Source: Chloroflexota bacterium
GTDB lineage: Bacteria > Chloroflexota > Anaerolineae > UBA1429
Assembly: GCA_012513595.1 (NCBI GenBank)
Contig: JAAZBY010000057.1
Location: 1-5,129, forward strand
Length of the DNA: 5,129 bases
Direction of reading: 5' to 3'
Positions 3,750 through 5,129 of the stretch are shown piece by piece. Both the position numbers and the translations under genes were made by a program. The notes under the pieces are model-generated. The model ran no database searches, was not told the origin of the DNA, and worked only from the letters and a program-made list of their open reading frames with translations. The stretch's first letter is position 1, and each line of letters opens with the position of its first letter.

Positions 3750-3777
3750 AAAAGGCCGCCGCATCTCTGCGGCGGCC
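3750..3777 (-). terminator. Rho-independent terminator after the pilT-like gene
   Basis: On the minus strand a perfect 10-bp stem, GGCCGCCGCA and TGCGGCGGCC (3777-3768 and 3763-3754), closes a GAGA tetraloop. TTTT (3753-3750) follows directly. It starts 43 bp after the pilT-like stop codon. Stem, GNRA-type loop and T-tract make this the clearest terminator in the window, and it separates the pilT-like transcript from the pilin gene. Confidence 0.85.
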
Positions 3778-3820: not shown

Positions 3821-4960
3821 CTAGGCGCTCATGCGCCCCTGAGACAGCGCCTGCAGCCGCTCCGGGTTGGCCGAGCGGGACAGGATCTCCTCAAACGTCA
3901 CCGTGCCACGCCGGTAAAGGTCCAGAAGCGCCTGGTCCATGCTGCGCATCCCCAGCCGCTGGCTCGTCTCGATCAGGCCGGGGATCTGCTGCGTCTTGCC
4001 CTCGCGGATCAGGTTGCGCACCGGGGCCGTCCCCAGCAGCACCTCCACCGCGGCGACGCGCCCCTGCCCGGCCGCGGTGGGCAAGAGCGCCTGCGACAGG
4101 ATCCCCTCCAGCACGTTGGCCAGCTCCACGCGGATCTGCTGCTGCTTGTGCTCCGGAAAGACGTCGACCAGCCGGTCCAGCGTGGCGGCGGCGCCGGTGG
4201 TGTGCAGCGAGGAGAGCACCAGGTGGCCCGTCTCGGCGGCGACGAGGGCCGCCTCGATGGTATCGACGTCGGCGAGCGCGCCGACCAGGATGACGTCGGG
4301 GTCCTGGCGGAGCGCGGCGCGGACGGCGTCGGCATAGGAGGGCGTGTCGCGCCCCAGTTCCCGCTGGGTAATAAAGGCGCGCTTGTCGGCGAACACGTAC
4401 TCGATGGGGTCCTCACAGGTGACGATGCGCACGGCGCGGCGCTCGTTGAGGTACTCGACCATGGAGGCCAGCGTCGTGGAGCGGCCCGAGCCGGCCGGCC
4501 CGGTCACCAGGATCAGCCCGCGCGGGCGCATCACCAGCTCCTTGCAGACGGAGGGGAGGCGCAGGTCGTCGAGGGGGGGGATGGCCGCCAGCAGCCGCCG
4601 GATGGCCAGGGTGAGCGTACCGCGCTGCCGGGCGACGTTGACGCGGAAAGGCGCCGCGCCGTCGGGCGCGCACGACACGTCCAACACGGAGGTGGCCGCA
4701 AAGCGGGCGCGCTGCTCCTCGTTGGTGACCTGGAAAAGGATGGCCTCCAGGTCCTCCGCAGAGAGGGGGGGCAGGTCATCCAGGCAGTGGAGTTCGCCCC
4801 ACACGCGCAGGGCCGGCGGGCGGCCGACCTTGAGGTGCAGGTCCGAGGCGTCCAGCTCAGCGGCGCGTTGCATGAGGTCGCCGATCTGCACCCGGCCGTT
4901 GGCGGGCGGGGCGCTGGGCGAGGTGGGTAAGGCGGTACCGTGGCCCGAGGCTCTCGGCAT
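3821..4960 (-). CDS. pilT: PilT-family type IV pilus ATPase with substituted catalytic motifs
   Basis: The 379-residue protein aligns by eye with PilT retraction ATPases over its length. After a Pro/Ser-rich extension (1-23) comes the N-terminal PAS-like domain (about 24-145), with SDLHLKVGRPPALRVWG (39-55) and FRVNVARQRGTLTLAIRRL (105-123). The RecA-like ATPase domain runs from about 146 to 379. The Asp box CEDPIEYVF (182-190), the SYADAVRAALRQDPDVILVG region (208-227), the His box GHLVLSSLHTTGAAATLDRL (245-264) and the PilT-specific APVRNLIRE (312-320) are intact. However, the Walker A motif reads GPAGSGRST, with Arg160 in place of the invariant Lys. The usual Walker B-end GEMRD reads GALAD, replacing the catalytic Glu at 228 and the Arg at 230 by Ala. 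The frame is clean, so this is not an obvious pseudogene. The ATG at 4960 has GGGAG (4972-4968) 7 nt upstream; the ATG at 4967 is out of frame. Motor function is doubtful; the symbol denotes family only. Confidence 0.92.
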   Translation of the reverse strand: MPRASGHGTALPTSPSAPPANGRVQIGDLMQRAAELDASDLHLKVGRPPALRVWGELHCLDDLPPLSAEDLEAILFQVTNEEQRARFAATSVLDVSCAPDGAAPFRVNVARQRGTLTLAIRRLLAAIPPLDDLRLPSVCKELVMRPRGLILVTGPAGSGRSTTLASMVEYLNERRAVRIVTCEDPIEYVFADKRAFITQRELGRDTPSYADAVRAALRQDPDVILVGALADVDTIEAALVAAETGHLVLSSLHTTGAAATLDRLVDVFPEHKQQQIRVELANVLEGILSQALLPTAAGQGRVAAVEVLLGTAPVRNLIREGKTQQIPGLIETSQRLGMRSMDQALLDLYRRGTVTFEEILSRSANPERLQALSQGRMSA

Positions 4961-5036
4961 GGGGCATCTCCCGACTTGGCTTACAGCGGGCAGCGGGCCA
5001 GGCGCGCGACGCGGACCTAGCGCCCGGCACAGGCTC

Positions 5037-5045
5037 AGTATACCA
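5037..5045 (-). promoter_or_regulatory. Extended -10 promoter of the pilT-like gene
   Basis: On the minus strand TGGTATACT (5045-5037) fits the extended -10 form TGnTATAAT with one mismatch in the hexamer, and uses the same TATACT hexamer as the padR promoter. No -35 is recognisable; a run of seven C (minus strand, 5067-5061) lies where it would be. Transcription would begin near 5030, leaving a leader of about 70 nt. No gene is visible between here and the right edge; an AT-rich patch at 5075-5093 could aid the polymerase. Confidence 0.5.
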
Positions 5046-5129
5046 GAAGAGGGGCGAGAAGGGGGGGCCTCCTGAGTAAATATCCCGGAAAATCTGCCAG
5101 GGCAGGGCGGGCGGCTCCGTCACGACCCC

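Follow-up and report, generated by a model that had tools for sequence, protein, structure and literature searches.

The window, by which we mean the whole 5,129-nucleotide stretch of Chloroflexota DNA analysed here, encodes a full-length PilT-family protein that lacks both the Walker A lysine and the catalytic Walker B glutamate. Judged by sequence comparison, this double loss is old and shared by a lineage, and is not a fresh mutation. We give a probability of roughly one in two to the reading that the protein is a pseudo-ATPase PilT, which would fold, likely form a ring and not power retraction, its ring probably being tied to the pilin encoded next to it. The gene has likely been kept as a ring or switch that burns no ATP, and not as a motor.

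A full-length PilT homologue with an altered nucleotide pocket

The open reading frame (4960-3821, minus strand; Table 1) extends over 379 codons without interruption. Its product scores 415.9 bits against the TIGR01420 PilT/PilU profile (cut-off 319.1), and the solved structures nearest to it in sequence are those of PilTs. The AlphaFold2 model (pLDDT 88.7, pTM 0.84) has the PilT fold, with Geobacter PilT4 as its best structural matches (TM 0.72-0.85 by query). By descent and fold, the protein belongs to the PilT/PilU family, but it falls outside the PilT retraction ATPases when judged on the catalytic residues that define them.

In V. cholerae numbering, K136 corresponds to Arg160 of the window protein, E204 to Ala228 (codon GCG, 4279-4277) and R206 to Ala230 (GCC, 4273-4271). 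Compared with the PilT retraction ATPases of type IVa pili (TIGR01420; PDB 2ewv, 3jvv, 6ojx), the protein is alike in length, profile score, predicted fold, Asp box, His box and RNLIRE motif, but it carries arginine for lysine, alanine for glutamate and alanine for the next conserved arginine. Of the features that define a retraction ATPase, the two catalytic residues are thus absent, and both boxes and the AIRNLIRE-type motif are present in the window copy. P-loop Ser161/Thr162 and Asp-box Glu183 are also retained.

The preliminary description had reported a full-length homologue without the lysine and the glutamate, and the reading frame, the codons and the TIGR01420 score bear this out. Its statement that the frame, both boxes and the C-terminal motif are kept is likewise correct for the window copy; extended to conservation in general it holds only in part, as three relatives of the same branch show erosion of the His box or the Asp box.

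Table 1. Features of the window around the PilT-family gene
Feature	Position	Strand	Basis or remark
PilT-family protein, full length, 379 aa, without Walker A Lys and Walker B Glu	3821..4960	-	ORF, TIGR01420, PDB sequence matches, AlphaFold2
Walker A GPAGSGRSTT, Arg160 replacing Lys	4472..4501	-	Arg160 codon CGC, 4483-4481
Asp box EDPIEY, intact	4397..4414	-	within TCEDPIEY
Walker B region DVILVGALAD	4268..4297	-	Ala228 for catalytic Glu, Ala230 for conserved Arg
His box HLVLSSLH	4202..4225	-	H246 and H253 both present in window copy
C-terminal PVRNLIRE, kept	4001..4024	-	AIRNLIRE-type motif
Shine-Dalgarno-like GGGAG	4968..4972	-	7 bases before ATG; putative ribosome site
Terminator-like hairpin after pilT	3754..3777	-	10-pair stem and TTTT
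Pilin-like protein, 120 aa	3210..3572	-	class III signal GFTLVE; PF07963
Upstream 169 bases, no pilD gene end	4961..5129	-	three frames read, tblastn

A double loss shared by a lineage

Arginine at position 160 and loss of Glu228 are common to P0001, P0002, P0013, P0003, P0004 and P0017, with identities to the window protein from 99.7% down to about 61%. P0001 differs from it by one residue, and P0013 is a partial, 236-residue piece. Residue 228 is alanine in P0001, P0002, P0013 and P0004 and cysteine in P0003 and P0017, and position 230 is alanine, arginine or aspartate across the branch. Among the 120 homologue clusters listed, Arg160 occurs in 10, Glu228 is absent from 9 and both lesions coincide in 7; six of these seven go with the window, and the seventh, P0082, belongs elsewhere. 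A profile search built from the branch returned no additional member, and a scan of viral contigs gave no relative of the window protein.

Since six separate records carry both lesions, a private recent mutation is excluded, as is a sequencing or assembly error, an explanation that is refuted and keeps a negligible chance. The preliminary description had regarded canonical residues in sister orthologues as evidence against its reading; the sister branch does have both, yet this counts only in part, since the losses are long-standing and common to the branch, not private to this sequence. It had also asked whether R160 and A228 are conserved in close orthologues: Arg160 is found in all six, but residue 228 varies between alanine and cysteine and is never glutamate.

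Phylogenetic placement and repeated lysine-to-arginine change

A maximum-likelihood tree of 89 rows was built with the motif columns removed; it left out P0001, P0013, L006 and most of P0062-P0123. The window protein, P0002, P0003, P0004 and P0017 form one branch with support 97/96, five of the seven members being placed. Its sister branch (support 100/100), made up of P0005, P0007, P0008 and the G001 copy (L001), keeps both the lysine and the glutamate, although P0005 has glycine in place of the conserved arginine. At L001, pilT is followed by an orthologue of the window pilin gene, which identifies it as the same locus as the window's.

Two further PilT lineages with Arg160 occur in the order of G001. 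One contains G013 and G014 together with P0083 and P0088 and retains the glutamate. In the other, G005 with P0082 and P0085, His253 is gone from all three, and the catalytic glutamate is replaced by aspartate or glutamine in G005 and P0082 and kept in P0085; P0080 and P0099 group with G005 yet retain lysine. Four changes at position 160 are required on the tree. A topology uniting all Arg160 PilTs in a single clade was rejected (p-AU 2.3e-05, in a test that did not separate G005 from G013/G014), so Arg160 arose more than once.

Signs of selection since the catalytic residues were lost

Of the 90 family-invariant columns, 22 vary within the branch, compared with 142 of 262 others (Fisher p 8e-7); most of the conserved core is therefore still held. 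About 457 amino-acid changes have accumulated without a stop, against a neutral expectation of 3.3 to 13.6 stops depending on mutational GC, with p 0.035 in the strictest case; the ORFs listed span 0.55 or more of the query length, which means that shorter broken copies could be missed. The five full-length members used are predicted full-length ORFs, and the branch is represented at the DNA level by the window only. These counts indicate continued selection against stops and core changes. The pilT genes of G013 and G014, both encoding Arg160, show a dN/dS of 0.073, and the comparison of the window gene with G001 pilT gives 0.40 at a high dS between distant DNAs.

Relaxation of constraint is visible as well. 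Family-invariant columns deviate at 24 of 90 positions in the branch and at 12 of 90 in the sister branch, which is represented by four rows, two of them nearly identical; many of the deviating positions lie in or near the nucleotide pocket. Constraint thus looks weaker than in canonical PilT. The 119 rows taken as canonical were picked after their motifs had been seen, and part of the invariance at the catalytic columns follows from that choice.

The main rival explanation is slow decay, in which the retractable pilus was lost, catalytic constraint went first and the gene is drifting to loss with no new role. We regard it as possible but doubtful. The twofold excess of deviating columns is what it would predict, and so is the variation of catalytic residues at 228 and 230. 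It is also favoured by the absence of His- or Asp-box residues in three branch members; the first histidine of the His box is lost in P0003, P0004 and P0017. The full-length frames that persist despite so many changes speak against it, with the reservation about short broken copies noted above, as do the conserved state of the conserved columns and the low dN/dS of the G013/G014 lineage. The preliminary description had proposed selection for a role without hydrolysis; the conserved double loss, the intact frame and the retention of most of the PilT core agree with this, but the mixed-hexamer or brake role that it attached to the proposal does not fare as well (see below).

Expression signals and gene neighbourhood

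Of the expression signals claimed previously, the ribosome site (a putative one, GGGAG lying seven bases ahead of the ATG) and the terminator (3777-3754, minus strand) were recovered; the scan found three terminator-like sites where 0.6 were expected. The claimed promoter was not. No sigma-70-type promoter was found between 3000 and 5129, against 0.2 expected, in a scan for that promoter type only and with 169 bases upstream of the pilT ATG present before the window ends.

The pilin-like gene downstream of pilT is, by alignment, the orthologue of the gene that follows pilT in five relatives, and 12 of its 13 listed homologues fall outside its own cluster. A candidate case of a lost or broken pilT, on a 1.94-Mb contig with pilin P0125 (89% identical to the window pilin), was dropped because the contig columns appear to describe the cluster representative only. 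Upstream, pilD directly precedes pilT in seven of the relatives examined. In the window, tblastn with five PilD proteins gave no credible match to a pilD end in 4961..5129 (the best upstream match, E 0.22, spanned 17 residues of the opposite strand); a more distant pilD would fall beyond the window.

Elsewhere in the window, a CRISPR-like array occupies 2575-2973. Between 2637 and 2973 it has six identical copies of a 28-base repeat, spaced 61-65 bases apart, preceded by a degenerate first copy at about 2576, and its repeats may resemble those of type I-E systems. No cas gene stood out on inspection of the window. On the minus strand, three neighbouring genes (333-749, 1152-1565 and 1852-2310) code for a DUF5320 protein, a dinitrogenase FeMo-cofactor-type protein and a PadR regulator, with a second glycine-rich, DUF5320-like candidate ORF at about 799-1040.

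Rarity of the lesions and pilus genes in relatives

Loss of catalytic residues is rare among the PilT proteins surveyed. We sampled 400 genomes of the phylum to which G001, a Chloroflexi metagenome-assembled genome, belongs and scored five candidates per genome; PilT exceeded the cut-off in 56 genomes (97 rows). We read 71 of these rows, at least one per genome, the other 26 being further copies in genomes already sampled. In 69 loci, Lys160, Glu183, Glu228, Arg230 and His253 are all present, and one locus is without His246; of the remaining two, G001 is intact and G005 carries lesions, making it the only one of the 56 PilT genomes to do so. G477, an 18th PilT genome from outside the phylum sample, has one locus with intact motifs.

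Several other peculiarities were noted in this survey. The second half of the His box, usually TLHT, reads TGHAP in L196, L210-L213 and L216 and TSHAP in L215, loci that belong to G670, G663, G726, G774, G586, G813 and G853. Genomes G548, G579, G593, G607, G677, G732 and G744 (1.7-2.1 Mb) each contain at least five PilT-family matches. A PilT-like stretch at G579:C1:1088363-1089352 contains six TGA and two TAA codons within the matching region; G579 has four further PilT matches.

Pilus gene order is recognisable in relatives with a full set. G002, G009 and G010 share the order pilM-like, pilD, pilT, pilin; G008 has pilD, pilT, pilin on a contig that ends at pilD, with pilM on another contig. 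In G005, G013 and G014, the Arg160 pilT stands immediately after pilD, and these genomes gave no PilB, PilC, PilM or class III pilin match. Their PilD proteins (loci L112, L116 and L117, respectively) keep VIDLEH and GDGD. G001 has pilT and pilin with intact residues on a contig that begins at pilT, no PilB or PilC match and at most a weak PilM match.

Across the 17 PilT genomes of the order and class samples, a lesion was defined as a change at K160, E228, R230 or H253. Lesions were present in 4 of 5 genomes without PilB (G005, G013, G014 and G071, not G001) versus 0 of 12 with PilB and PilC (Fisher p 0.002; for Arg160 alone, 3 of 5 versus 0 of 12, p 0.015), an association that was defined after seeing the data and in which G013 and G014 are close kin. 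G071 has R230S as its only lesion; its PilC-family matches number three, all weaker, and two of these lie next to a Tad-type ATPase. The confinement of lesions to PilB-less relatives among these 17 genomes is a further point in favour of slow decay. Pilus loss alone does not bring lesions, as G571, G710, G738, G750, G768 and G808 each have one intact PilT and no PilB row (in a sample scored for five candidates per genome, with no PilB profile).

A putative non-hydrolysing ring

In the related order, 8 of 15 genomes have PilT, and each of the eight has exactly one (E <= 1e-30); the relatives include metagenome-assembled genomes and may be incomplete, with G001, G005, G014 and G071 selected under a 90% completeness floor. 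This count bears on the earlier suggestion of mixed hexamers with, or a brake on, a true PilT, which finds no support in it. With a partner motor unsupported, a non-motor ring associated with the pilin is favoured.

A related explanation places the protein as a helper ring in a working pilus, where it would dock on the platform and hand retraction to a PilU-like protein or a second PilT, or act as a brake through mixed hexamers. There is precedent for it: V. cholerae PilT with K136A, E204A or both needs PilU and still supports retraction (PMC6821130, PMC6762196), so that an ATPase-dead PilT suffices for PilU-driven retraction. The AIRNLIRE-type motif kept in the window protein is a further point in its favour. 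We nevertheless consider a helper ring unlikely, given the single PilT in all eight PilT-bearing genomes and the Arg160 relatives G005, G013 and G014 without a PilB or PilC match.

The V. cholerae K136A, E204A and double mutants lack the same two catalytic residues as the window protein, but they are engineered changes in a background where PilU and a full pilus are present, whereas the loss in the window is natural and lineage-wide. The natural R206S change in PilT of V. cholerae MO10, described in PMC6762196, removes the arginine beside the Walker B glutamate, as does Ala230 in the window and serine in G071; it concerns one strain and that single change only. PilU is a paralogue that works alongside PilT and, according to the same source, carries both the lysine of Walker A and the glutamate of Walker B, whereas the window protein lacks them and groups among PilTs. 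Among the papers listed for searches of the open literature, which omits most subscription papers, none concerned a natural PilT lineage deprived of both catalytic residues; they included engineered dead PilTs and the one natural R206S strain.

Applied to the window protein, the pseudo-ATPase reading would work as follows. Arg160 keeps a positive charge and, together with Ser161/Thr162 and Glu183, may still allow nucleotide to bind. Without E228, the general base, and R230, normal ATP turnover would be prevented, so that the ring may bind nucleotide without cycling. The V. cholerae mutants are a precedent for a PilT that remains useful when its own ATPase is dead. The outcome would be a static or nucleotide-sensing ring, most likely acting on the pilin of the adjacent gene, in a role possibly adopted once the retractable type IVa pilus had been lost or reduced in this lineage.

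One point against the pseudo-ATPase reading is that Asp231 could in principle serve as a substitute carboxylate. A still-active ATPase would use Arg160 and a nearby carboxylate (Asp231 or Asp-box Glu183) in place of the usual residues. Lysine to arginine is a conservative change, Asp231 is kept in six of seven branch sequences (glutamate in P0017) and Glu183 in all seven. Three pocket residues are altered together in the window copy, however, and P. aeruginosa no longer twitches when E204 has been removed by engineering (PMC6858323). Activity of this kind seems to us very improbable.

Extending the pseudo-ATPase reading from the window to this Chloroflexota group is more tentative, and we hold it with less than even confidence. 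PilT may have outlived the pilus at least twice: after loss of PilB and PilC, the single PilT, with lysine changed to arginine at the same site in separate lineages, would have dropped hydrolysis and turned into a pseudo-ATPase ring, itself conserved, whose new function is not that of a motor and is connected with a solitary pilin or with prepilin peptidase.

Significance

PilT mutants show that the protein has roles beyond its own ATPase. A stable natural PilT that does not hydrolyse ATP, if true, would allow what the ring does in docking or regulation to be told apart from its role as a motor. It would also carry a warning for genome interpretation, namely that finding pilT in a metagenome-derived genome does not mean twitching or retraction.
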